NCBI GenBank assembly: GCA_009783465.1
Contig: WRDM01000009.1
Span: 1 to 64,000, forward strand
Source: Phycisphaerae bacterium
GTDB lineage: Bacteria; Planctomycetota; Phycisphaerae; SM23-33
Reading direction: 5' to 3'
Length of the DNA stretch: 64,000 nucleotides
Part shown: positions 11,889 through 52,509 of the stretch, piece by piece
Numbering within the stretch: the first letter of the stretch is position 1
How the letters are laid out: every line of letters starts with the position of its first letter
The notes under the pieces: generated by a model
The model's input: only the letters and a program-made list of their open reading frames with translations
Databases searched by the model: none
What the model was told of the DNA's origin: nothing
Program-made: the position numbers and the translations under genes

Positions 11889-11964
11889 GGAGGACAACGT
11901 TTCTCTCGCCAATTGACCATGCCGGCCAATGTTGGCAGAATGTGGCCAAACCAAAGGAGTTTCG

Positions 11965-14625
11965 ATGAACGCCCTACGTCCCTTTGCCGCGCGGGTGAGT
12001 TGGATCTGGTCGGACGAGAATGTTTCCGGCGTCAGCCCGGTCAATCGCGATCCGGTCGTCACGCGGTATTTTCGCCGTACGTTCGATGCTTTCGCGGGGC
12101 AGCGGCTGGTGGTCTACATTTCCGCCGACAGCCGATACAAGTTGTTCTGCAACGGCGTGCTCGTCGCGCGCGGCCCGGCGAAGGGCGACATCGCGCATCA
12201 TTTTTACGAGACGGTCGATCTCACGGCGCATCTGCGGGCTGGGCGGAACGTGTTGGCCGCGCAGGTGCAGTTTTATGGGCAGGCCGCCCCGAATTATTAC
12301 ACCGGCGGGCCTCTCGTCAGCGTGATGACGCACGCGCCGGGGCTTGTAGTGCAGGCCCGGCTGAGCGACGCGGCCGGCTTCGAGTCGCAGTCCCTCGACA
12401 GCGACGAGCGCTGGCGCGTGCTCGCCGACACCGCCTGCCGACATCACGGCGACGGGCCCAACTGCCCCTGCGCGGGCTGGCTGGAAGATTTCGACGCCGC
12501 ACAGTTCCCCTGGGGTTGGACGGGGCTGGAGTTTGACGACTCCGCCTGGCCGGCCGCCACGCCGATCGATTTGGCCACCATGATCAACGACGGCAGGCAG
12601 AGCGTCATGCCGCATCAGCTCCTGCCTCGCATGATCGCGATGCTGGACGAGCAGGCCCCGCGCGGCTTCGCCCGCGCGTACGGCGCGACGGGCGCCGCCG
12701 ACCTGGCCGCGTGGCAGACGCTGCTACGTGGCGCGGGCGTCTCGCCCGCGTTGTGCGATCCATTGGCCTGTTCAACGGAAAACGGTCAATCGCCTTCGCC
12801 GTCGGGCGCGGGCAAGATGCCCGCGAGACACGAGGGCGAGACGCCCTCGTCACGTGAAACCGGCGTGACGATTCCTGCCGGGCAGTCCGCCAGCGTCTGG
12901 TTCGACGCCGGCGCGAACACGACGGGCTATCCGCGTCTGCAATTCGCCGGGCGCGGCGAGGTGACGCTGACGTACATGGAGTCGCCCATCGCCCCCGATG
13001 GCACAAAACCCAACCGCAACGCCGAGGGCGACTGGCAGCCGACGGGCCAATCCGACCGCGTCCTCTGTGACGGCAGCCACACCTACGAGCCGTTCTGGTG
13101 GCGGACGTTCCGTTTTGTCCACGTGCGAGTGCAGGCCGGCGAAACGCCGCTGACTATCGCGGGCCTGCGGTACGCGTTCACGGCCTATCCGCTCGCGCCG
13201 CGGGCGGCGTTCGAGTGCAGCGACGCTGCCGCCACGGCCGTCTGGGAAAACTGCTGGCGGACGCAGGTGCTCTGTTCGCACGAAACGTACGAGGACTGCC
13301 CGTACTACGAGCAGCTTCAATACGGCGGCGACACGCAGGTCCAGTGCATGAACACGTACGCCGCCGCCGGCGACGCCACGCTCGCACGGCAGTTTTTGTA
13401 TCAGTTCGATTGGTCACGTCAACCCAGCGGCCTGACGCGAAGCCGCTACCCCTCGCGAATCCCGCAGACGATTCCGTACTGGTCGCACCATTGGGTGATG
13501 ACGTTGGCGGAGTATTGGCAGTACACCGCCGACCGCGCGACGGTGGCGGACCTGCTGCCGGGTGTGTTGAATTTCGCCGATTATCTCGAGCGTCGCGTGA
13601 CGCCCGCGGGCGTGATCGGGCGGCTTGACGGCTGGCTGGTCGCGGACTGGTCTCCGGACTGGGGCTGGATGAATCGGCAGCACGGCGCGCCTCCGGGCGC
13701 GTCGCAGGGGCAGGGGGCGTACGACAGTTTGATTTCGATTGCCGCGTTGTCGTCGGCGGCGACGGTGGTGGAGGCGGTGGGGGGGGCGTGTTTGGGCGAT
13801 CGCGCCGAGGCCGTCGCGCGGGAGTTGCGCGGGCGGCTCGAACGGCTGCGGCAGGCCGTCGTTCGCGTGTATTACGACGCGGCGGAGGACGTGTATCTCG
13901 ACAGGCCTCGGGGCGACCTGACGGACATGGAGCATTCCGGCGGGCGGCGGGCCAGCGCGTTCACGAACGCCTGGGCGATTCTGACCGACATGCCGATCGC
14001 CGATCCAGGCCGGCTTGCGGAGCGGATGATTCGCGACACGACGGGCCTGTGCCGGCTGACGCCGTTCAGTGGCTACTTTGCCGCGCGGGCGCTGTCGCAT
14101 GCCCGGCGGTATGACTTGTTCCCCATGCTCATCGCGCCGTGGCGGTCGATGATCGACTGGGGCTTGACGACCTGCCCGGAGTTCCCCGATTTCGCGACCA
14201 GCCGCAGCGACTGCCACGCGTGGTCCGCCGGACCGCTCGTCGAATTCACGCGGGAAATCCTCGGCGTCCGCCCGAGCAGGCCCGGCTGGGCGGAAATCAC
14301 GATCCAGCCGCGCCCCGCGGGCCTGTCGCACGCCAAAGGCAGAGTGCCCCTGACGCGATGCTTCCGCTTCGACGGCCGGGCGGCCTCCTGCGGCAACCAG
14401 GCCGACCTGACCGCCCCAGGCAGCCCCCACGAACACGTCACCGCCGCCCAGCAGGCCATGACCACGCCCTGGGAATTCGTCGAAGTGGATTGGCGTATTA
14501 TCGCCGGGAGATTCGCCATTGTTGTGGATGTTCCACGAGGTATTCCCACGCGATTGATTTTGCCCGATGGCACGACGCGGGAGTATCCCACCGGTGGAAA
14601 AATCGAAACGAGTTGTGAGGTGTGA
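11965..14625 (+). CDS. Alpha-L-rhamnosidase (GH78-like)
   Basis: 886 residues from the ATG preceded by AAAGGAG. The N-terminal ~220 residues are a beta-sandwich (YISADSRYKLFCNGVLVARGPAKGD is typical of the GH78 jelly-roll). The catalytic (alpha/alpha)6 barrel includes ETYEDCPYYEQLQYGGDTQVQ, with acidic residues in the position of the GH78 general acid, and PYWSHHWVMTLAEYW. A beta C-terminal domain with IQPRPAGLSHAKGRVP follows. It should release rhamnose from plant or algal polysaccharides. No signal peptide is seen, so it would act in the cytoplasm. Residues ~254-298 are an in-frame palindromic cassette (AGVSPAL..GKMPA..GETPS) at the junction of domains. Confidence 0.85.
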   Translation: MNALRPFAARVSWIWSDENVSGVSPVNRDPVVTRYFRRTFDAFAGQRLVVYISADSRYKLFCNGVLVARGPAKGDIAHHFYETVDLTAHLRAGRNVLAAQVQFYGQAAPNYYTGGPLVSVMTHAPGLVVQARLSDAAGFESQSLDSDERWRVLADTACRHHGDGPNCPCAGWLEDFDAAQFPWGWTGLEFDDSAWPAATPIDLATMINDGRQSVMPHQLLPRMIAMLDEQAPRGFARAYGATGAADLAAWQTLLRGAGVSPALCDPLACSTENGQSPSPSGAGKMPARHEGETPSSRETGVTIPAGQSASVWFDAGANTTGYPRLQFAGRGEVTLTYMESPIAPDGTKPNRNAEGDWQPTGQSDRVLCDGSHTYEPFWWRTFRFVHVRVQAGETPLTIAGLRYAFTAYPLAPRAAFECSDAAATAVWENCWRTQVLCSHETYEDCPYYEQLQYGGDTQVQCMNTYAAAGDATLARQFLYQFDWSRQPSGLTRSRYPSRIPQTIPYWSHHWVMTLAEYWQYTADRATVADLLPGVLNFADYLERRVTPAGVIGRLDGWLVADWSPDWGWMNRQHGAPPGASQGQGAYDSLISIAALSSAATVVEAVGGACLGDRAEAVARELRGRLERLRQAVVRVYYDAAEDVYLDRPRGDLTDMEHSGGRRASAFTNAWAILTDMPIADPGRLAERMIRDTTGLCRLTPFSGYFAARALSHARRYDLFPMLIAPWRSMIDWGLTTCPEFPDFATSRSDCHAWSAGPLVEFTREILGVRPSRPGWAEITIQPRPAGLSHAKGRVPLTRCFRFDGRAASCGNQADLTAPGSPHEHVTAAQQAMTTPWEFVEVDWRIIAGRFAIVVDVPRGIPTRLILPDGTTREYPTGGKIETSCEV
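12726..12858. repeat. In-frame GGGC(N)5GCCC palindrome cassette in GH78 gene
   Basis: Contains GGGCGTCTCGCCC, GGGCAAGATGCCC and GGGCGAGACGCCC, each a short GC palindrome, bounded by ACGTGG-like and CACGTG-like ends. The gene reads through it without a stop. The peptide matches those in metXW and both ABC genes. Confidence 0.85.
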
Positions 14626-17077: not shown

Positions 17078-17232
17078 GGCGAACGCATGGTACGTGACGC
17101 GGGCATCTTGCCCGCGTGTCTCGCGGCCGTCTTGGCCGCGTCCGGCGATGAAACGCCAAGATTTTTTGCGATGTACGTTGTATGGAGCGGCCCGCGAGGG
17201 CAAGATGCCCTCCCACGTACCATGCGTTCGCC
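17078..17232. repeat. Intergenic GGGC(N)5GCCC palindrome cassette
   Basis: Outer arms GGCGAACGCATGGTACGTG and its complement enclose CGCGGGCATCTTGCCCGCG and GAGGGCAAGATGCCCTC. This is the non-coding counterpart of the cassettes found inside genes. It lies between the FkbM gene and the PEP-CTERM gene, both minus. Confidence 0.8.
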
Positions 17233-22423: not shown

Positions 22424-22552
22424 CGGCCGTACGTGGCGCGGGTATCCCGCCCGCGTTGGATTCGCGGGCACCTTGTAGGTTCTTGTTGCATTGGATTCAT
22501 GGTACGATCAGCGAGGGCAAGATGCCCGCGTCACGTACCATGCAACCGCCCC
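22424..22552. repeat. GGGC(N)5GCCC palindrome cassette before the histidine kinase
   Basis: Contains CGCGGGTATCCCGCCCGCG and GAGGGCAAGATGCCCGCG with outer arms CCGTACGTGG / TCACGTACCATGC. The ORF-track start of the kinase (22491) lies inside it. Intergenic version of the in-frame cassettes. Confidence 0.75.
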
Positions 22553-30042: not shown

Positions 30043-31971
30043 CTACACCCGCAGCAACTGTTGTTTCTTTTCTTCGACGAACTGGTGGGTGTAGAGTTCG
30101 TGGTATCGGCCTTGGAGGCGGAGGAGGTCGTGGTGGGTGCCTTGTTCGGTGATTCGGCCATGTTCGATCACGAGGATGTGGTCGGCGTTTCGGATCGTCG
30201 AGAGGCGGTGGGCGATGACGAAGCTGGTTCGGCCTTTGAGCAGTTGTTCCACGCCGCGTTGGATGAGGCGTTCGGTGTGGGTGTCGACGGAGGAGGTGGC
30301 TTCGTCCATGACGAAGATCTGCGGGTCGGCGAGCACCGCGCGGGCGAAGGAGATCAGTTGCTTCTGCCCCGTGGAGAGCCGGTTGCCGCCCTGGCCGACT
30401 TCGGTGTCGTAGCCGTGTTCGAGGCGGAGGATGAATTCTTCGGCGTTGACCAGCCGGGCGGCGGCGGCGACCTCGTCGTCGGAGGCGGTCAGTCGCCCGT
30501 AGCGGATGTTCTCGCGCACCGACCCGCCGAACAGGTGCGGCGTCTGGAGCACAATGCCCAGCCGGCTTTGCAGCCACAACAGGCTGCGGCGGCGATAATC
30601 CACGCCGTTGATGAGGACCTGCCCGGCGGTGGGTTCGTAGAAGCGGCACAGCAGGCTGACGATGGTGCTCTTGCCCCCGCCGGTGTGCCCGACCAGCGCG
30701 ATCGTCTTCCCTGCCGACACGGTGAGATTGAAGCCCGTCAGCACGGGTTGGCCTTCCTTGTAGGCGAAATCCACGTCGCGGAATTCGATGGTGTCGATGC
30801 GGTCGTCGCAACGTGGCGCGGGCGTCTCGCCCGCGCTATGCGCTCCATAGGCCGGAACGGTGGAGGACGGCGAAACCGGTTGGCCGTTTGCCAACGATCC
30901 GTCACAGGGCGTGGTTAACGCGGGCGAGACGCCCGCGTCACGTTGCGACGCCTGTTTGACCTCCTCGCTGTCCCGGATGGCCGGCTCGGTCGCCAGCAGC
31001 GTCAGCACGCGTTCCACCGACGCCTGCGACGCATACACTTCCGTCAGCACGCGGGCCATCTCGTTGACCGGATCGAAAAACATGCCCGCGCAGGTGATGA
31101 ACAACACCAGATCGCCCAGCGTCATCCCCGTGTCCATCATCCGAAGCCCGCCGTACCACAGCGCCAGGCCCGCCCCCGTCGCGCCAACCGCCGTCACGAT
31201 CGGCATGTACAAGGCCGACTGCAACGCGTTCCGCATGCTGCTGCCGTACATCTCGTCCGTCTGCTTGGTGAATTCCCCGAGGCTCTCCGCCTCGCGGGCC
31301 AACGCCTTGGTCGTCCGAACCGCCTGGAGCGACTCGTTATACGACGCCGTGATCTGCGAGTTGACCTTTCGCATCGCGCGCGAACTGTGGAGCAGCCTCC
31401 GCTGAAGGATCGCGCACGCCACCGCCAGCGGAGGCAACACCGCGAACACCACCAACGCCATCTGCCATTGGACGTAGAGCATCACGCCCGCCATCACGAA
31501 CATCAACACCACGCCCCAGGCGAAGTCCATCAGCCCCCAGCTCAGCAGGCCGGAGATGCGTCCGCAGTCGCCGGTCGCGCGGGCGATCAGCCAGCCGACG
31601 GGGCGGCGGTCGTAGTAGGCGAACTCCAACTCCTGCAACCGCCCGAACACGTCGCGGCGGATGTCGTGCGCGACGTGATTGGAAATGTGCCCGGCCTGCT
31701 GAATGTACTGCCAGAGAAACACCGTCTGAAAGCAGATCGACACGATCAAGCCAGCGCCGTGCCACAGCACCGCGCCGCGGTCGCCTCCGTCGGCGCCGTT
31801 GATCAGCCCGCGCAGCAGCAGCGTGTACACCATGTGCAGCGCCGCCAGCCCCGCCGTCGCCACGCCCAGCAGCACCAGCGCCCGTGTGTAAGGCCGAACA
31901 TACCGCAGCGCCTTAGCCCACTGCCGCAAGTTCAAATCGCCGGAAAATTCTTCTTCCTGGAAACCACGCAT
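30043..31971 (-). CDS. ABC transporter permease/ATP-binding subunit (consensus site)
   Basis: 642-residue half transporter. The N-terminal ~320 residues are the six-helix exporter domain (LVLLGVATAGLAALHMVYTLLL, WGVVLMFVMAGVMLYVQWQMALVVFAVL). The ATPase domain has Walker A GHTGGGKST, signature LSTGQ, and Walker B FVMDEATS with the catalytic Glu intact. Between them, residues ~343-387 are an in-frame palindromic cassette (RDAGVSPAL..GETPAPR). It follows the second half-transporter gene with a repeat-filled gap of 166 nt. Together they form a heterodimeric exporter of the TM287/288 or BmrCD type; substrate unknown, probably lipid- or drug-like. Confidence 0.92.
   Translation of the reverse strand: MRGFQEEEFSGDLNLRQWAKALRYVRPYTRALVLLGVATAGLAALHMVYTLLLRGLINGADGGDRGAVLWHGAGLIVSICFQTVFLWQYIQQAGHISNHVAHDIRRDVFGRLQELEFAYYDRRPVGWLIARATGDCGRISGLLSWGLMDFAWGVVLMFVMAGVMLYVQWQMALVVFAVLPPLAVACAILQRRLLHSSRAMRKVNSQITASYNESLQAVRTTKALAREAESLGEFTKQTDEMYGSSMRNALQSALYMPIVTAVGATGAGLALWYGGLRMMDTGMTLGDLVLFITCAGMFFDPVNEMARVLTEVYASQASVERVLTLLATEPAIRDSEEVKQASQRDAGVSPALTTPCDGSLANGQPVSPSSTVPAYGAHSAGETPAPRCDDRIDTIEFRDVDFAYKEGQPVLTGFNLTVSAGKTIALVGHTGGGKSTIVSLLCRFYEPTAGQVLINGVDYRRRSLLWLQSRLGIVLQTPHLFGGSVRENIRYGRLTASDDEVAAAARLVNAEEFILRLEHGYDTEVGQGGNRLSTGQKQLISFARAVLADPQIFVMDEATSSVDTHTERLIQRGVEQLLKGRTSFVIAHRLSTIRNADHILVIEHGRITEQGTHHDLLRLQGRYHELYTHQFVEEKKQQLLRV
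30810..30945. repeat. In-frame palindrome cassette in ABC gene 2 of the pair
   Basis: GCGGGCGTCTCGCCCGC and its near-copies on both ends, translated as RDAGVSPAL..GETPAPR in the linker between membrane and ATPase domains. Same linker position as in the partner gene. Confidence 0.85.
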
Positions 31972-32009
31972 GGCTTATTTTCGTTTGTTCGAGGGAATCA
32001 GAGCCACTA

Positions 32010-32162
32010 GCCACTAGCCACAAGGTATTCGTAGTTCGATTGTGGCATCACACGATGTTGATCGGGCATCATTTGTTTATCTACTCCCGCTGTCACTGCC
32101 GTTTCGCCCAGGGCGTTCCGTACCTTGTGGCTAGTGGCTAGTGGCTTGTGGCTAGTGGCTTC
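32010..32162. repeat. Heptamer-bounded element (GCCACTA repeats)
   Basis: GCCACTAGCCACTAGCCACA then GGTATTCG at ~32010-32037, mirrored by CGTTCCGTACCTTGTGGCTA and GTGGCTAGTGGC at ~32114-32162. The inner part CTCCCGCTGTCACTGCCGTT matches the element at 39303-39462. The second array encodes the last residues (PLATSH) and stop of the upstream ABC gene. Confidence 0.8.
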
Positions 32163-34108
32163 TCGTCTTTCTGTAGATCATCCTCCAAACTATTCTGTAT
32201 CCGCCACAGGCTTGCGTAGAGGCCTTCCTGGGTGAGCAGTTCGTCGTGCGTGCCCTGCTGGGCCACTTTGCCGCGGTCGAGCACGAGAATCCGGTCCGCC
32301 TGCCGCAGCGCGGAGAGGCGGTGCGATGTCACCAGCGTTGTCCGATGGGCGTGCCGCGTCCGCAAGGCCGACAGGATCCGCGTCTCCGTCCGCGTGTCGA
32401 CGGCGGAGAGGCAGTCGTCCAGCAGCAGGATCGTGCCATCGCGAACCATCGCCCGTGCCAACGCAACCCGCTGCCGCTGCCCGCCCGAAAGCGTCACGCC
32501 ACGCTCGCCCACCAGCGTGTCGTACTTCTCGTCGAACGCCATGATCGACTCGTGCACGCACGCCGCGTGGGCGGCCGACTCGATCTGATCCTGAACGGCG
32601 ACGTTGTGGCCGAGGCGGATGTTGTCCCGCAACGTTTTGGAATACAGGAACGGCTCCTGGAGTACCACGGCGAACTGCTTCCGCACCGCCTGGCGGTCCA
32701 GGTCGCGCAATTCCTGCCCGTCCACATGGATCGAGCCGTGCTGGTAATCGTAAAACCGCAACAGCAGATGCAGCAGCACGCTCTTGCCCGACCCGCTGGG
32801 GCCGAGGATCGCCAGCGTCTGGCCTGGCGCGACGTCGAAGGAAACATCCTCCAACACGTTGGCCTGCCCGTCGAACGAAAACGTCAAGTTCCGCACGGCG
32901 ATCGCGCCCGTAGCACGGGTATCCAAACGTGACGCGGGCGTCTCGCCCGCGTTGTGTGTTCCATAGGCCTGACCGTTAAAGGACGGCGAAACCGGCTTGG
33001 TGTCTTCCGACAGTCCGTCACATGGCATGGCTAACGCGGACGAGACGCCCGCGTCACGTTCAGACGCGTCCGTCGTCTCGGGTTGCTCTTCGAGAATCTC
33101 CTCCAGACGTTCCAGCGACACCGTCGCCTTGCCCAGATTCGTCAGCAGTCTGCCCAGGCCTCGCAGCGGCCAAATGATCATGTTCCCATACGCGATGAAC
33201 GTGAACAGCACGCCCACCGTCAGCGAGCCGCCCATCACCCAGTATCCTCCGACCAGGAGAATCAGCACGTTTTGCAGATGGCAGAGCAGGTCGGTGCCCG
33301 ACCAGTACCAGGCCATCAGATTCCGCAGCCGCAGATACTCGTCGCGCTGGGCGGCGTTTTTGACGGCAAATTTGTCCCGCTCGTACGCCTGTCTGGCGAA
33401 CGCCCGCACCACGCGGATGCCCGTGAGATTCTCCTGGAGCACCGCGGTCATGGCGCCTTCGGCTTCGTCGGCCTTACGGAACGTCCGGCGGATCTTCCCG
33501 AAAAAAAACGTGGACGCCACCAGCACGATCGGCATGAGCGACATGGCCACGAGCGTCAGCCTGCCGTCGAGGGCCATCATGAACGGCAGCATGGTCAGCA
33601 GAATGATGCCCATGCGGGCAACCTCGATGGTCTGTCCGCCGACGAAGCCCTTGACGGTCTCGACGTCGCTGGTGCACCGCTGCACGAGGTCGCCGGTAGG
33701 GCGGTTGTCGTGGAACGCGCACGGCAGCCGCTGGAGGTGGTCGTACAGGCGGTTCCGCAGTCGGCGGGCGATGGTTTCGCACGCCAGGGCAGCCCAGCGA
33801 TCCTTGAGAAACGACGCCGCGCCCGCCAGCACCGCGAAGCCCGCAATGGCGATCACGCACACCCAGAGATGCCCGCCAAGCCAGCCTCGCCCGCCGAGTG
33901 ACTCGACCGCGCCCACCAGCCACGCGGGGGCGATGAGCGGCTCGTTCTTCAGCGCATAGTCGATCGTTTGCCCGATGATCCACGGCGGGACGAGCATCGC
34001 CAGCGATGCCGCCGCCATCGCCACGACGGCGGCAAGATACCGCCACTTCTGGTCGGTCATCAACCGCCAGAGCGCGACGTATTTCGACGCTTTTTTACGC
34101 GCAGTCAT
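32138..34108 (-). CDS. ABC transporter permease/ATP-binding subunit (degenerate site)
   Basis: 656-residue half transporter, probably first gene of the pair. Six-helix domain (YLAAVVAMAAASLAMLVPPWIIGQTIDY..). ATPase domain: Walker A GPSGSGKS, signature LSGGQ, Walker B ILLLDDCLSAVDTRTE. The residue after the Walker B Asp is Asp, not the catalytic Glu; this substitution marks the degenerate subunit in heterodimeric exporters such as BmrC and TM287. Residues ~349-394 are an in-frame palindromic cassette (RDAGVSSAL..GETPASR) in the linker. The C-terminal KPLATSH comes from tandem repeats. Start overlaps nothing; the UROD-like gene ends 13 nt away in the same orientation upstream. Confidence 0.93.
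   Translation of the reverse strand: MTARKKASKYVALWRLMTDQKWRYLAAVVAMAAASLAMLVPPWIIGQTIDYALKNEPLIAPAWLVGAVESLGGRGWLGGHLWVCVIAIAGFAVLAGAASFLKDRWAALACETIARRLRNRLYDHLQRLPCAFHDNRPTGDLVQRCTSDVETVKGFVGGQTIEVARMGIILLTMLPFMMALDGRLTLVAMSLMPIVLVASTFFFGKIRRTFRKADEAEGAMTAVLQENLTGIRVVRAFARQAYERDKFAVKNAAQRDEYLRLRNLMAWYWSGTDLLCHLQNVLILLVGGYWVMGGSLTVGVLFTFIAYGNMIIWPLRGLGRLLTNLGKATVSLERLEEILEEQPETTDASERDAGVSSALAMPCDGLSEDTKPVSPSFNGQAYGTHNAGETPASRLDTRATGAIAVRNLTFSFDGQANVLEDVSFDVAPGQTLAILGPSGSGKSVLLHLLLRFYDYQHGSIHVDGQELRDLDRQAVRKQFAVVLQEPFLYSKTLRDNIRLGHNVAVQDQIESAAHAACVHESIMAFDEKYDTLVGERGVTLSGGQRQRVALARAMVRDGTILLLDDCLSAVDTRTETRILSALRTRHAHRTTLVTSHRLSALRQADRILVLDRGKVAQQGTHDELLTQEGLYASLWRIQNSLEDDLQKDEKPLATSH
32927..33065. 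repeat. In-frame palindrome cassette in ABC gene 1 of the pair
   Basis: GACGCGGGCGTCTCGCCCGC and a matching inverted end around CCTGACCGTTAAAGG-type centre. Translated RDAGVSSAL..GETPASR. Clearly homologous to the cassette at 30810-30945, including PCDG and PVSPS. Confidence 0.85.
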
Positions 34109-34121
34109 CCCCGAGGCGCCC

Positions 34122-35207
34122 TCACGTATTTTTCTCGAACCACGCCAGCAGATCGTCGGCTTCTTTGACGCTGTCGGCCCCGGTGCAGTACATGGTTTTG
34201 GCGGGGGCCAGTTCTCGGTGGGCCTGCTTGCATTCGTCGATCGTGCCGATGAACTGCACCGCCTTGCCAGCCTTCTGGACGCGTCGCAGGAGCGGCAGGT
34301 GGTCGATGTGCTTGATGCGCCCGCCGATGCTCACGGTGGGGACGTAGCCGAACGTGTGGAAGCCCTCGATGGTGACGAGGTCGGCTTCGTGCTTGAGGGC
34401 GTCGGGGCCGTCCCAGTGGTGGAAGGCGTTTTTGACGATCGACGCCTCCTCGACGTAGGCGGGGCGGATCCATCGGCGGAACATCTCCGGGCTGATCATG
34501 CAGCAGAAGTCGCAGGAGATGACGGCGGCGCCTTCCATGGAATACAGGCCCTGGCAGTGACCACGTTCGTCCATTTTGGCGGCCTCGACGACGCGGTTCC
34601 AGATCTGCGGGAAGATGGCCCGCGCGCTGTCCATGGCGCGGTCGATCATTTCGGGCTGGTCGACGAGGTCCATGCACAGCCGGTCGGGGCTTCGGGCTGC
34701 GACGAGGAGGTCGCCGTTGGTGTGCAGGTCGAGGTGGGAAATCAGCATTTTTCCTTCGAGTTTGGCCGCGGCGCGGCGGCAGAGTTCGAGCATCCGCTGC
34801 CAGAGCGGGTTTTCCTCGTGGATGCGGAAGGGCAGGGCGGTTTCCCAGTCGTCGACGAAGGGTTTGGACCAGTTGGTCCAGCCGCTGTCGTCGTTGAAGT
34901 GGAATTCGCCGTCGCTACAGAAAACGGCGACTTCGTCGGCGCCGAAGCTGATTCCCATGGCCGGTATGGACTCGCCGCCGTAGTAGTTGCAGGAGGCGGC
35001 TTCGAGGTTGGTGTCGATGATCTTGTCGAGGTCGCCGAAGTTGTAGTCGCGATATCCCACGCCCGGCGGGGGCTTCTTGCCTTCCAGCGGCGCGCCAACG
35101 CACACGAGCGGCCTTTTGTACAACTCGCCGGCCAGGTAGGCCTCCCACCGCTTGGCGGCTTCGTCGAGGTCGGGTTTGAGCGACAGAGGGTACGGTTTTT
35201 TCTTCAT
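34122..35207 (-). CDS. Uroporphyrinogen decarboxylase (URO-D)-like protein
   Basis: 361 residues from ATG 35207 preceded by AAGGAA. A TIM-barrel of the URO-D superfamily: HLDLHTNGDLLVAARSPDRLCMDLVDQPE, the CCMISPEMFRRWIRPAYVEE segment, and HKHID-like GGRIKHIDHLPLLRRVQKAGKAVQF. This group includes true HemE and many corrinoid methyltransferases or glycan-associated members in Planctomycetes. The N-terminal RGFRPP-like catalytic arginine motif of HemE is not seen, so porphyrin decarboxylation is unlikely. It is divergent from the GH38 gene across a shared 320-nt region, which suggests co-regulation. Confidence 0.75.
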   Translation of the reverse strand: MKKKPYPLSLKPDLDEAAKRWEAYLAGELYKRPLVCVGAPLEGKKPPPGVGYRDYNFGDLDKIIDTNLEAASCNYYGGESIPAMGISFGADEVAVFCSDGEFHFNDDSGWTNWSKPFVDDWETALPFRIHEENPLWQRMLELCRRAAAKLEGKMLISHLDLHTNGDLLVAARSPDRLCMDLVDQPEMIDRAMDSARAIFPQIWNRVVEAAKMDERGHCQGLYSMEGAAVISCDFCCMISPEMFRRWIRPAYVEEASIVKNAFHHWDGPDALKHEADLVTIEGFHTFGYVPTVSIGGRIKHIDHLPLLRRVQKAGKAVQFIGTIDECKQAHRELAPAKTMYCTGADSVKEADDLLAWFEKNT

Positions 35208-40015: not shown

Positions 40016-41053
40016 CTACTCCAACTCCACCGGACTCACGCCGCCGATGGGTCGTGCTTTGCCGGCAAGCCGGTTGGCGACCTGGAGGAACTGTGCGGGC
40101 CCGACGTCTTCGGCGCGGAGGGTGTGGTCGATGTGGGCGGCGTCGAGGGCGGCCAGCAGTTCGTCGGGCTCGAACGCGGAATGTTTCCGCCGTGCGACGG
40201 AGGCCAGTTGCTTGCGACGCTGGTTGAAGCTGATGGACAGCAGGGCCTTGAGGGCGGGCACGTCGAGGACGCCGGCGGCGCGGTCGGCGTCGAAATCCAC
40301 GCGGACGATTCGGCTGACGACCTGAGGCCGGGGCCAAAACGACGTGTTGGGCACGGTCGGCCCCAGGTGGGTCCGACCCAGCAGCGACACGAGAATGCTG
40401 ATCGGCCCATACTGCGGCGTGCCCGGTTCGGCGAGGAACCGATCGGCGACTTCGGCCTGCACGGTGAAGATCAGCCGCGAGAAGAGCGTGGCACGGGCGT
40501 CCCGCCCGTGAGTCCCACGGGCATCTTGCCCGTGGTGATCTGGCTTGGATGTGGACGTTTCCTCCACTGGCTGCGCTGACATGGGCGAGACGCCCATGCG
40601 ACGCACGGGCAAGATGCCCGTGCTACTGCGCCAGGAGGTCACCAGGCATTGCGCCACCAGCGGCGTGGCGATGTTGTACGGCAGGTTGCTCACGAGGACG
40701 GCCCGGTCGCCCAGGGCGGCCAGCACGGCCGGCGAAATTTCATGCTTGCCCGCCAGCACGTCCTCGTGGAGCAGCGTGAGATTCGCCCGCCCGCCGAGGC
40801 GGCTTTCGAGAAGTCGGTGCAGCCCCTTGTCGATCTCCACGGCCACCACCCGCCCGGCCAGGACGAGCAGCTCCTCCGTCATACTCCCGGTGCCAGGCCC
40901 GACCTCCAGCACCGTCTCGACCGGCGAAAGCTCCGCCAACTCCAACACCTTGGCGAGCAGATTCTGGTCGAACAGAAAATTCTGCCCAAACCGCTTCTGC
41001 GGCGCCAGGCCGAAGTCGTCGAGGAGGCGTTTGATTTCGTTGAGGCTTTGCAT
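40016..41053 (-). CDS. rsmA: 16S rRNA dimethyladenosine transferase
   Basis: 345 residues, longer than the usual ~270-290 because of an insertion. Dimethylates two adjacent adenines near the 3' end of 16S rRNA. Features: QKRFGQNFLFD (19-29), motif I VLEVGPGTGSMTEELL (48-63), acidic VAVEID, and the catalytic NLPY at 123-126. Residues ~142-190 (SSTGILPVRRMGVSP..HGQDARGTHGRDARAT) are an in-frame palindromic cassette; normal sequence resumes at LIFTVQAEVADRFLAEPGTPQYGPIS. C-terminal RNA-binding domain intact. Last gene of the ribosomal cluster. Confidence 0.95.
   Translation of the reverse strand: MQSLNEIKRLLDDFGLAPQKRFGQNFLFDQNLLAKVLELAELSPVETVLEVGPGTGSMTEELLVLAGRVVAVEIDKGLHRLLESRLGGRANLTLLHEDVLAGKHEISPAVLAALGDRAVLVSNLPYNIATPLVAQCLVTSWRSSTGILPVRRMGVSPMSAQPVEETSTSKPDHHGQDARGTHGRDARATLFSRLIFTVQAEVADRFLAEPGTPQYGPISILVSLLGRTHLGPTVPNTSFWPRPQVVSRIVRVDFDADRAAGVLDVPALKALLSISFNQRRKQLASVARRKHSAFEPDELLAALDAAHIDHTLRAEDVGPAQFLQVANRLAGKARPIGGVSPVELE
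40484..40630. repeat. In-frame palindrome cassette in rsmA
   Basis: GCACGGGCGTCCCGCCCGTG, CCCACGGGCATCTTGCCCGTG-type, ATGGGCGAGACGCCCAT and GCACGGGCAAGATGCCCGTG, four small palindromes arranged so that the outer pairs are mutual complements. About 147 nt, a multiple of three, no stop in the rsmA frame. Confidence 0.88.
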
Positions 41054-41069: not shown

Positions 41070-41277
41070 TACCACAGAGGCACAGAGAAACACAGAGAGT
41101 GGCACTGGGTATTCGAGTAATCGTTCGCGATGGCTTGCCTCTTTGCGCTGTAAAATGTTGTACATCAGAGAACGTTTCGCAGCACACAACATTTTACAGC
41201 GCAAAGAGGCAAGCCATCGCGAACGATTACTCGAATACCCAGTGCCACTCTCTGTGTTTCTCTGTGCCTCTGTGGTA
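41070..41277. repeat. Perfect 92-bp inverted repeat (composite hairpin)
   Basis: Arms 41070-41161 and 41186-41277 are identical reverse complements over all 92 nt, with a 24-nt loop. From outside in: TACCACAGAGGCACAGAGAA-type heptamer repeat, an unclassified segment (CACTGGGTATTCGAG), and a TGCC-TTTTGCG family core. Located between rplI and rsmA (both minus). Confidence 0.97.
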
Positions 41278-42913: not shown

Positions 42914-43048
42914 ACGTAGCACGGGCGTCTCGCCCGTGAGTCGCATGGGCATCTCGCCCATGCAACGGTTCCAGAACGACCTTCTTGCCTATGCCGCCAC
43001 GGGCGGGACGCCCGTGGGACTCATGGGCGAGACGCCCATGCTACGGCA
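42914..43048. repeat. Intergenic palindrome cassette between rpsF and ssb
   Basis: AGCACGGGCGTCTCGCCCGT, CATGGGCATCTCGCCCATG, CACGGGCGGGACGCCCGTG and CATGGGCGAGACGCCCATG: four small palindromes that pair outside-in (first with third, second with fourth in complement). Same cassette type as in rsmA, here in the gap between two essential co-transcribed genes. Confidence 0.85.
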
Positions 43049-50201: not shown

Positions 50202-50256
50202 GCCCGACGAGACGCCCGGCCCATTCGCCTGATTGTGGATAGGGCTTGCCCGTCTT

Positions 50257-50312
50257 AGCCCCGGAGGGGTGCCTTGGAGGTATATCGCCTCCAAGACGCC
50301 CCTGCCGGGGCT
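50257..50312. terminator. Strong GC-rich hairpin after the PEP-CTERM gene
   Basis: AGCCCCGGAGGGGTGCCTTG / CAAGACGCCCCTGCCGGGGCT pairing across 50257-50312, with TGGAGG / CCTCCA next to the short TATATCG loop. No long T-run. GGGGCGTCTTGG also resembles the sequence of the long nested inverted repeats. Probable terminator or member of that family. Confidence 0.6.
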
Positions 50313-50553
50313 TGGACATTACATAATGCCTATTCCCAGGGCTCGCCCGAGTACGGGCGGCCCTGAGCTACCCAACGCGGCCCCTGCCGGGGCCAAGAGG
50401 CAAGCCATCCCGAAACGTTTTTCGGACACCCGAGTCTGTCTCTGTGTTCTCTACTGTGTCTCTGTGGTAAAAAAACTCTTGCCCTCGCGTTTGAACGTCG
50501 TTGTCTCCATCTCCTCTCTTCACGAACCGCTCCTGTCATGGTACATTCTCCCC
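50313..50553. other. Repeat-rich gap before metXW
   Basis: Holds a hairpin related to the long nested repeats (GCCCAGGGCTCGCCCGAGTA, GGCCCCTGCCGGGGCC), a half TGCC-TTTTGCG element (GAGGCAAGCCATCCCGAAAC), and a CTGTGTCTCTGTGGT heptamer tail as at 41280. No riboswitch-like structure or promoter was recognised before metXW. Confidence 0.55.
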
Positions 50554-52509
50554 ATGGCAGAAGGTTTTCAAAGTTCTGATAGTCTGCGAAGCGGCAAGCC
50601 GCTCATGTACGCTCAGTACGCCCAGCTTGAGCCTGTGTCGCTGGAGATGGGCGCGACGCTGAGCGATGTCACCGTGTGTTACGAAACGTACGGCACGCTC
50701 AACGTGGCCCGCGACAACGCCGTGTTGATCTGCCACGCGCTGTCGGGCGACAGCCACGTCGCGCGGCATGACGCCGATGACGACGCCGGGTGGTGGGATC
50801 TCATCATCGGGCCCGGCAAGCCGATCGACACCAACAAATACTTCGTCATCTGCCCGAACATCCTGGGCGGCTGTCGCGGCACGACCGGGCCCAACAGCAT
50901 CAACCCCGCCACGGGCCGACGCTACGGGCGCGATTTTCCGACCATCACGATTCACGACATGGCCGACGTGCAGGCGATGCTCGTGCGCCACCTGGGCATT
51001 GATTCACTGCTGGCCGTGGTGGGCGGTTCGATGGGCGGCATGCTCGCGCAGAGCCTGGCCGTGCGGCACGCGGCGATGGTGCGGGGCGCCGTCGCCGTCG
51101 CCACCGCGCCGCGATTCTCCAGCCAGTCGCTCGCCTTCGACGTCATCGGGCGAAACGTCATCCTCCGCGACCCCAACTTCTTCGGCGGCGATTACTACGA
51201 CCACGACACCGTCCCCAGCGTCGGGCTGGCCATCGCACGCATGATCGCTCACATCACCTACCTCTCGCCCGAGGCGATGCAGGAAAAATTCGAAGCCGAC
51301 CGCCACCGCCCCCGTGACGTGGCCACCGAATTCGAGAAAAAATTCTCCATCGGTTCGTATCTCGGCTACCAGGGCGACAAATTCGTCGAGCGGTTCGACG
51401 CGAACAGTTACGTTGCCATCACGACGGCGATTGACCTGTTCGACCTCGGCGCGACGCGCGAGCAGTTGCGGCAGCGGCTGGGCGAATCGGCCTGCCGCTG
51501 GCTGGTGGTGAGTTTTTCGAGCGACTGGCTGTTCCCGCCAAGCCAGTCACAGGATCTCGTCGCGGCGCTGCTGGCGAGCGGCCGATCGGTGAGCTACTGC
51601 AACGTCAAAAGCGCGTGCGGCCACGACGCGTTTTTACTGCCCAACGAAGTGCAGAGCTACGGCACGATGATCGGGTCGTTTTTGGCGAATCTGGACGGCC
51701 CAAAATCGGCGGCGAAAACGCAGGCGGCCAAGCCCGCGGCGGAAATGGCCGCCGCCGACAGTCCGACGAGCATTTTCACCGCGCGGCGGCTGGATTACGA
51801 ACGGATCATGGAGCAGATTCCGTCCGGCAGCAGCGTGCTGGATCTTGGCTGCGGCGCGGGCGGGCTGCTGGCGAGGCTGGCGCGTCGCGAGGGCAGCCCA
51901 CGTGACGCGGGCGTCTCGCCCGCGTTGTGTGATCCATTGGCCGGGACGCCCCCCTCCCCCCAATCGTCTTCGCCAACCGACGCGGGCAAGATGCCCGCGG
52001 GACACGAGGGCGAGACGCCCTCGTCACGTCATACACGACTAATGGGCGTCGAGTTGGACGAGCGGGCGATTGTCGCGTGCGTGCATCGCGGGCTGGACGT
52101 GGTGCAGGCCGACCTGAATCAGCCGCTGCCGCAATTCGGCGACGGACAATTCGACACGGTCGTGCTGAGTCAAACGCTCCAGGCCGTGCGGGACGTCGAG
52201 GGTGTCATCGCCGAGATGCTCCGCATCGGCAAACGGTGTGTGGTGAGTTTCCCGAACTTCGGCTATCGCAAGCTGCGGCAGATGCTCTTCGACGCCGGCC
52301 GCGCGCCGGAATCCTCCGGTATCCTGCGATACAAGTGGTACAACACGCCGAATATCCGCTTCTTCTCCATCGCCGATTTTGAAGAATTTTGCCGCGAAAA
52401 AACCATCCGCATCCAACGACGAATCGCCCTGGACACCGAAGCAGGCCAGGAAATCCACGACGACCCCAACCTCAACGCGGACCTGGCGATTTTCGCGATC
52501 TCGCGGTGA
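50554..52509 (+). CDS. metX: Homoserine O-acetyltransferase fused to MetW
   Basis: 651 residues from ATG 50554. Residues ~10-375 are MetX: YETYGTLNVARDNAVLICHALSGDSHVAR, nucleophile Ser159 in VVGGSMGGMLAQ, and the Asp and His of the triad in SFSSDWLFPP and GHDAFLL. It acetylates homoserine for methionine synthesis. Residues ~415-651 are MetW, a SAM-methyltransferase-like partner often encoded next to metX: VLDLGCGAGGLLARL, VVLSQTLQAVRDVEGVIAEMLRIGKRCVVSFPNFGYR. The two are fused here. Residues ~449-494 are an in-frame palindromic cassette (RDAGVSPAL..GKMPA..GETPS) between MetW motifs I and II. Confidence 0.94.
   Translation: MAEGFQSSDSLRSGKPLMYAQYAQLEPVSLEMGATLSDVTVCYETYGTLNVARDNAVLICHALSGDSHVARHDADDDAGWWDLIIGPGKPIDTNKYFVICPNILGGCRGTTGPNSINPATGRRYGRDFPTITIHDMADVQAMLVRHLGIDSLLAVVGGSMGGMLAQSLAVRHAAMVRGAVAVATAPRFSSQSLAFDVIGRNVILRDPNFFGGDYYDHDTVPSVGLAIARMIAHITYLSPEAMQEKFEADRHRPRDVATEFEKKFSIGSYLGYQGDKFVERFDANSYVAITTAIDLFDLGATREQLRQRLGESACRWLVVSFSSDWLFPPSQSQDLVAALLASGRSVSYCNVKSACGHDAFLLPNEVQSYGTMIGSFLANLDGPKSAAKTQAAKPAAEMAAADSPTSIFTARRLDYERIMEQIPSGSSVLDLGCGAGGLLARLARREGSPRDAGVSPALCDPLAGTPPSPQSSSPTDAGKMPAGHEGETPSSRHTRLMGVELDERAIVACVHRGLDVVQADLNQPLPQFGDGQFDTVVLSQTLQAVRDVEGVIAEMLRIGKRCVVSFPNFGYRKLRQMLFDAGRAPESSGILRYKWYNTPNIRFFSIADFEEFCREKTIRIQRRIALDTEAGQEIHDDPNLNADLAIFAISR
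51898..52035. repeat. In-frame palindrome cassette in metXW
   Basis: GACGCGGGCGTCTCGCCCGC, CGCGGGCAAGATGCCCGCG, GAGGGCGAGACGCCCTC between CACGTGA and TCACGT ends. The peptide is nearly the same as in the GH78 gene (DAGVSPALCDPLA..GKMPA.HEGETPSSR). Confidence 0.88.

Follow-up and report, generated by a model that had tools for sequence, protein, structure and literature searches.

An in-frame REP/REPIN-like cassette in rsmA and RAYT transposases apparently embedded in conserved enzymes of Phycisphaerae and other bacteria

The rsmA (ksgA) gene is located on the minus strand of the window, the whole stretch of 64,000 nucleotides of a Phycisphaerae draft genome analysed here, and its reading frame contains a palindromic cassette adjacent to the region encoding the catalytic motif. 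The features of the gene and of the cassette, in window coordinates, are as follows.

40016–41053, minus strand: rsmA/ksgA, 345 aa, 16S rRNA adenine dimethyltransferase with the cassette (Pfam, AlphaFold, structure match)
40676–40687, minus strand: NLPY catalytic motif of RsmA, which precedes the cassette by about 16 codons in the reading direction (aligned with relatives)
40488–40626, minus strand: REP/REPIN-type cassette, 139 bp, two inverted double-hairpin REP units, in frame as residues 143–189
40488–40491, plus strand: GTGG tag (GTAG variant) at one cassette end (sequence, compared with the GTAG ends of other copies)
40492–40510, plus strand: hairpin 1, CACGGGC-GTCCC-GCCCGTG (sequence)
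40515–40535, plus strand: hairpin 2, CCACGGGC-ATCTT-GCCCGTGG (sequence)
40536–40579, plus strand: spacer between the REP units, where autonomous relatives have the RAYT gene (comparison with locus L177)
40580–40598, plus strand: hairpin 3, CATGGGC-GAGAC-GCCCATG (sequence)
40604–40622, plus strand: hairpin 4, CACGGGC-AAGAT-GCCCGTG (sequence)
40623–40626, minus strand: GTAG tag (CTAC on the plus strand) at the other cassette end (sequence)

The host protein is identified as RsmA by its RrnaAD domain (Pfam, E 1.6e-42, profile positions 5–262 matching residues 19–330), its NLPY motif and its KsgA fold. In the AlphaFold model of the cassette-bearing protein (mean pLDDT 82, core about 90–95) this fold is kept, and a structure search with the model returned B. 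subtilis KsgA as the top PDB match and KsgA crystal structures as the leading matches. The cassette occupies a loop after the NLPY helix and before the next strand; helix 126–145 and strand 190–199 on either side are predicted with confidence, while residues 152–185 form an unstructured loop with pLDDT below 50. An alignment with 28 relatives, as the initial annotation had proposed, confirmed the extra segment: all except two (G005 and G025) have a short linker at this site, so the net insertion is estimated at about 40 residues. G005, from a genus related to that of the window genome, has a moderately longer loop, and G025, from a different genus within the window genome's family, has a REP cassette of its own that differs from this one and lies at most 2–3 residues from the same point. 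The earlier description of an in-frame palindromic insert in a loop beside NLPY, flanked by normal sequence, is thus borne out by alignment and model, and its estimate of about 49 residues is corrected to about 47 for the REP-coded part (STGILPVRRMGVSPM...HHGQDARGTHGRDARAT). The label "essential-type" given to the enzyme was too strong, as ksgA is dispensable in E. coli, though elements of this kind also occupy ValS genes that are single copy. The stretch separating rsmA from the next gene holds a perfect 91-bp inverted repeat, a long hairpin, at 41070–41277; the motif CACAGAGGCACAGAGA at its end occurs in 6 copies in 785 kb and probably belongs to another repeat family.

The cassette contains four GGGC(N5)GCCC palindromes, starting at 40495, 40519, 40583 and 40607, with hairpin loops of five bases each (GTCCC, ATCTT, GAGAC and AAGAT), and it folds far better than shuffled sequences (z −7.5 as DNA and −7.3 as RNA). 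Its two units form an inverted pair with the tags outermost at both ends, GTGG on one side and CTAC on the other, and GTAG ends are present in nearly all 29 full copies. Chance does not account for these palindromes, since their core GGGCATCTTGCCC has 194 exact copies in the 2.48-Mb genome and the reversed-word control has 0. Sampling of 785 kb of the genome in stretches yielded 116 REP clusters, a copy number in keeping with REPs and REPINs, which fall into two related families: family A (GTAG-CACGGGC-N5-GCCCGTG-AGTC...), in which two double-hairpin units usually stand head to head, and family B (GTGA-CGCGGGC-N5-GCCCGCG-TGTC...).

Known REPINs are, to our knowledge, extragenic, and a mainly extragenic placement is not what was found here. 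When coding status was judged by the codon score on both flanks rather than by annotation, a search for core clusters within reading frames, also proposed in the initial annotation, placed 52 of the 108 tested clusters (48%) in frame and open within coding sequence, a figure that includes one doubtful case with an ORF of only 46 aa (L040 8939) and that is biased toward in-frame copies because REP-peptide matches had guided the choice of half of the sampled stretches. Random 139-bp stretches scored in the same way gave 45%, which indicates that genes are not avoided. In-frame clusters outnumber frame-broken or stopped ones by 52 to 23, where one third would be expected in frame (P 2e-10), and none of the 52 in-frame elements has a length of 2 modulo 3, compared with 11 of the 56 others. 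Stretches not picked for REP matches have 17 of 42 clusters in frame (40%) at a ratio of 17 to 12 (P 0.005); the excess therefore stands but is smaller.

Seven further cassettes occur in the window, four of them in frame within genes.

12728–12853, plus strand: family-B cassette, in frame in an alpha-L-rhamnosidase ORF (11917–14622) (cluster frame analysis, Pfam)
17094–17217, plus strand: family-B cassette, probably intergenic (frame analysis)
22433–22534, plus strand: family-B cassette between opposite-strand genes (frame analysis)
30813–30941, minus strand: family-B cassette, in frame in an ABC transporter ORF (30046–31974), in the linker between membrane and ATPase domains (Pfam)
32929–33057, minus strand: family-B cassette, in frame in a second ABC transporter ORF (32141–34330), in the same linker (Pfam)
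42916–43044, plus strand: family-A (GTAG) cassette with a stop in the flanking coding frame, probably intergenic or at a gene end (frame analysis)
51902–52027, plus strand: family-B cassette, in frame in a hydrolase-MetW ORF (50233–52506), within the methyltransferase part (Pfam)

The similar cassettes in the linker of the two neighbouring ABC transporters could reflect either duplication or repeated insertion. Pfam names most of the ORFs that host in-frame cassettes in the sampled genome, including RsmA, TilS, a Mur ligase, RibD, HemD, threonine synthase (ThrC) and YjeF, PurL, CCA-adding enzyme, RNase R and FeoB (the last four with two cassettes each), and furthermore a radical-SAM methylthiotransferase, ABC transporters, MetW and ValS. 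Several domain matches extend across the insert: Peptidase_U32 (219–484) spans a cassette at 346–392, RNB (291–654) one at 429–461, and RibD_C (161–368) one at 261–287. At three clusters (L054 18282–18455 and window 17094–17217 and 22433–22534), flanking inverted repeats run on from the tags, for example GTTCGGAAC-GTAG...CTAC-GTTCCGAAC, which suggests insertion into palindromes or template-switching repair. A second small hairpin repeat, CCGTCTTTGCTTCGCTCTGTCGTGG, is nested in a REP hairpin loop at L039 7863–8018 and at L037 from 19702.

RAYT (TnpA-REP) is an HUH single-strand transposase, and a search of the window's own genome returned two Y1_Tnp matches, one of them in the valyl-tRNA synthetase gene ValS. 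There, a single 942-aa frame runs from the N-terminal part of the synthetase through a REP pair, the RAYT with its HUH motif and tyrosine, and a second REP pair to the editing-domain motif TTRPETMLGD, with no stop anywhere along this path; the flanking REPs belong to family B. This locus (L032/L033 on contig C1, ORF L033 2–2827, minus strand) has a second REP cassette in frame, and the remainder of the gene sits on contig C30. An AlphaFold model of a RAYT-bearing ValS (917 aa, 12 sequences) had a mean pLDDT of 48.5 and was set aside. No RAYT with family-A (GTAG) REPs was found among the two Y1_Tnp matches of this approximately 70%-complete assembly. A RAYT on contig C23 (L031) has its own 182-aa frame between unrelated repeats of the AGCCCCGAAGGGGCG type and resembles the TIRtrons described previously (PMC3733652); in view of these flanks it was set aside.

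When 397 genomes of the class, Phycisphaerae to judge from named relatives, were searched with the RAYT in the ValS of the window's own genome and the ValS sequence on either side of it, the same arrangement was found to recur in several families. Of the 32 closest RAYTs in these genomes, 31 occupy open frames of 450 aa or more, and at 66 of the 70 loci examined at least 60 aa are open on both sides (medians 450 and 552). Host names, assigned from conserved motifs and for nine loci from Pfam, include ValS (three sites), LeuS, IleS (two sites), PurH, GcvP, DinG-type helicases, restriction-methylation enzymes and others; ValS, LeuS and IleS, which are paralogous, are all hit at the hinge that precedes the editing domain. 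A different RAYT subfamily occupies LeuS, at a site paralogous to that in ValS, in eight loci (L103, L148, L149, L155, L157, L163, L171 and L172). In named genomes, 45 of 80 loci are embedded by the same measure of open frame on both sides, with MetH (Akkermansiaceae/Verrucomicrobiaceae), AlaS, FabZ, Sua5 and NadE as additional hosts. Genomes with embedded RAYTs come from PVC bacteria and others, and include the isolates Roseibacillus persicicus KCTC 12988 (L238, in a MetH of about 1,180 aa) and Lamprocystis purpurea DSM 4197 (in a methyltransferase-type gene). The embedded proteins have the Y1_Tnp domain (Pfam PF01797), and across 107 RAYTs the HUH motif is intact in all 107 and the catalytic tyrosine in 106.

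As the window genome is a draft and most loci come from metagenome-assembled genomes, decayed genes or assembly errors might be suspected; this is hardly credible, however, because the same anatomy is seen in the R. persicicus isolate and at over 100 loci of independently assembled genomes, the host genes are single copy with their domains and motifs retained, and dN/dS is low for both RAYT and flanks in most measurable pairs (dS being often near saturation). Removal of the inserts after transcription or translation, as an intron, an intein or by translational bypass, would instead leave the enzymes unmodified; the hairpins are strong, and inteins and IStrons likewise reside in conserved genes. 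Against this, no Rfam intron or ribozyme matched in four loci, and Pfam scans gave no intein splicing (Hint) domain, nor is there an Asn-Cys/Ser/Thr junction (the rsmA junction reads ARAT-LFS), which makes splicing unlikely. Moreover, more than 100 loci keep an open frame over as many as 250 codons, which removal at the RNA level or bypass would not need, and such removal is considered very unlikely overall.

The cassette in rsmA is connected to these transposases through the related genus represented by G005, in which a RAYT within ValS (L177) is bounded by GTGGCACGGGCGTCCCGCCCGTG...CCCATGGGC... and ...ACGGGCGGGACGCCCGTGCCAC, with the end peptides GTGVPPVCPMGVSPM and HGQDAHGTHGRDARAT. The ends and peptides of the rsmA cassette are nearly identical to these, with a 44-bp spacer standing where L177 has its RAYT gene; on this anatomy, the best interpretation is a non-autonomous copy belonging to the same class of elements. 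A matching RAYT for the GTAG-type REPs exists in G005; in the window's own genome only a family-B RAYT was found. The initial annotation had likened the insert to the Rickettsia palindromic elements (RPEs), with which it shares coding palindromes lying in frame in a housekeeping gene. RPEs carry a CGTC tag, whereas the ends here are GTAG/GTGG and the element is RAYT-associated (PMC3733652); membership was therefore rejected and is exceedingly improbable, the cassette being instead a GTAG-type REP pair whose RAYT-encoding autonomous relatives are themselves in frame in housekeeping genes.

In one genus (g145), ValS genes with flanking protein 94–99% identical occur as empty alleles (G190 and G335), a solo-REP allele (G338, RGEGVSPLCSV) and a full REP-RAYT-REP allele (G219). 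Of 15 genomes checked, 14 have ValS in one copy, and G143 has a second partial match. For MetH, 6 of 6 cases have one copy of the activation domain, always interrupted at the same place in the profile (about 116/117), with the unsplit MetH of Lamprocystis as a control; RAYTs at this fixed site were recorded at L236, L238, L240, L241, L244, L249–L251 and L256 in Akkermansiaceae/Verrucomicrobiaceae. A tree of 107 RAYTs is mostly grouped by host site, with L123 (third ValS site) and L188 (NadE) nested in the main ValS clade and the ValS copy L117 outside it. Mosaics with sharp borders are found in MetH: L240 and L241 share 94–100% of the RAYT DNA and about 88% of the flanks, while L236 and L241 are about 90% identical in the flanks and only 54% in the RAYT protein. 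Site-wise grouping, nested copies and mosaics together indicate that the elements persist, are exchanged at a site and reach new genes; gene conversion could be a partial cause of the exchange pattern. It is also conceivable that the embedded RAYTs and REPs have been domesticated, acquiring a new function for the enzyme or its mRNA (such as regulation or RNA binding) that makes retention adaptive for the host, as sites common to several genera, the conserved HUH motif and tyrosine, and the recurrence at the editing-domain hinge of ValS, LeuS and IleS might suggest. The patchy occurrence, the empty alleles within one genus, the exchange at fixed sites and the very many unrelated hosts, however, render this unlikely.

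We therefore favour, with a probability of roughly 85%, the explanation that the rsmA cassette is a REPIN/BIME-like, non-autonomous copy of a GTAG-tagged REP family with RAYT-bearing full-length members that has adapted to life within proteins. This draws on the observed in-frame anatomy, copy number, full, solo-REP and empty alleles, catalytic residues and RAYT turnover at fixed sites. Full-length members consist of a RAYT gene between two REP units, and the REP ends contain no stop in the frame that is read (xGT AGC ACG GGC ...); GTAG contains TAG, yet the frame is open because it is read as xGT AGC. As the RAYT frame has no stop of its own and is open at both ends, insertion into a tolerant surface loop leaves one continuous frame. 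RAYT would act at the GTAG ends and move the cassette in single-stranded form; gene-breaking insertions would be purged and in-frame insertions in tolerant loops would survive, where residence in indispensable genes may shield the element from deletion. The host would then make an enzyme with a disordered REP peptide of about 10–65 residues or a whole RAYT domain of about 190 residues, and this fusion would be translated whole and would work. A broader proposal, held with moderate confidence, is that PVC and neighbouring phyla harbour a large class of transposable elements that live embedded in proteins. In this view, RAYTs would be produced solely as in-frame domains of conserved enzymes, many of them single copy (ValS, LeuS, IleS, MetH and others); they would be kept and swapped at fixed sites much as homing inteins are, but without splicing, and would give rise to hundreds of small in-frame cassettes such as that in rsmA.

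REPs and their transposases are thought to live between genes, and the elements described here lie inside conserved enzymes and are apparently translated, with the transposase forming an in-frame segment of methionine synthase and of tRNA synthetases. Provided that the fusions are made whole, they would represent a new route for a selfish element to expression and to protection from deletion, would provide a natural catalogue of loops in essential enzymes that tolerate insertions of 10 to 250 residues, and would explain the GTGFQPV/HGQDARAT peptides in predicted proteins of these phyla; the GILPV/GQDAR-type peptides that the first reading of the sequence had suggested for other planctomycetes are indeed widespread there. 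We know of no demonstration of RAYT transposition in vivo; RAYT mobility has long been inferred, and natural empty, solo-REP and full alleles within one genus are now available for tests.

GTAG-tagged and intragenic REPs were described by Di Nocera et al. 2013 (PMC3733652), with GTAG families reported in Rhodopirellula baltica and Opitutus terrae, so that the rsmA cassette alone belongs to a known kind. Those REPs share with the present ones the GTAG tag, short GC-rich palindromes, head-to-head dimers and some placement in ORFs, but are mostly intergenic and have no in-frame RAYT described, whereas the REPs examined here fall within genes at roughly the rate of random DNA, and the transposase is itself embedded. 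A search of the open-access literature found no report of RAYTs embedded in frame in synthetases or essential enzymes, and no REP peptides as letter strings; such transposases inside conserved enzymes seem not to have been described before, and a 2018 survey discarded unexpectedly long proteins as fusions or annotation errors. REPINs (PMC3116915) are likewise non-autonomous, RAYT-dependent mobile units of two inverted REPs, but here the REP unit is usually a double hairpin and the whole unit is protein-coding. REPtrons and RAYT/TnpA-REP systems (PMC6006769, PMC8266576) share the HUH and tyrosine transposase with REPs in inverse orientation, and cleavage and recombination of single-stranded REP DNA are established in vitro for other RAYTs (PMC8266576); unlike in REPtrons, the transposase frame here is without its own stop and continues into the host enzyme at both ends. 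RPEs are also in-frame palindromic repeats in housekeeping proteins, differing in their CGTC tag, their sequence and their lack of a transposase. Inteins with homing endonucleases offer an analogy rather than a membership, being parasitic ORFs in frame in conserved genes with turnover at fixed sites; the present elements differ in having no splicing domain, in an insert that apparently stays in the protein, and in an HUH transposase that takes the place of the homing endonuclease.
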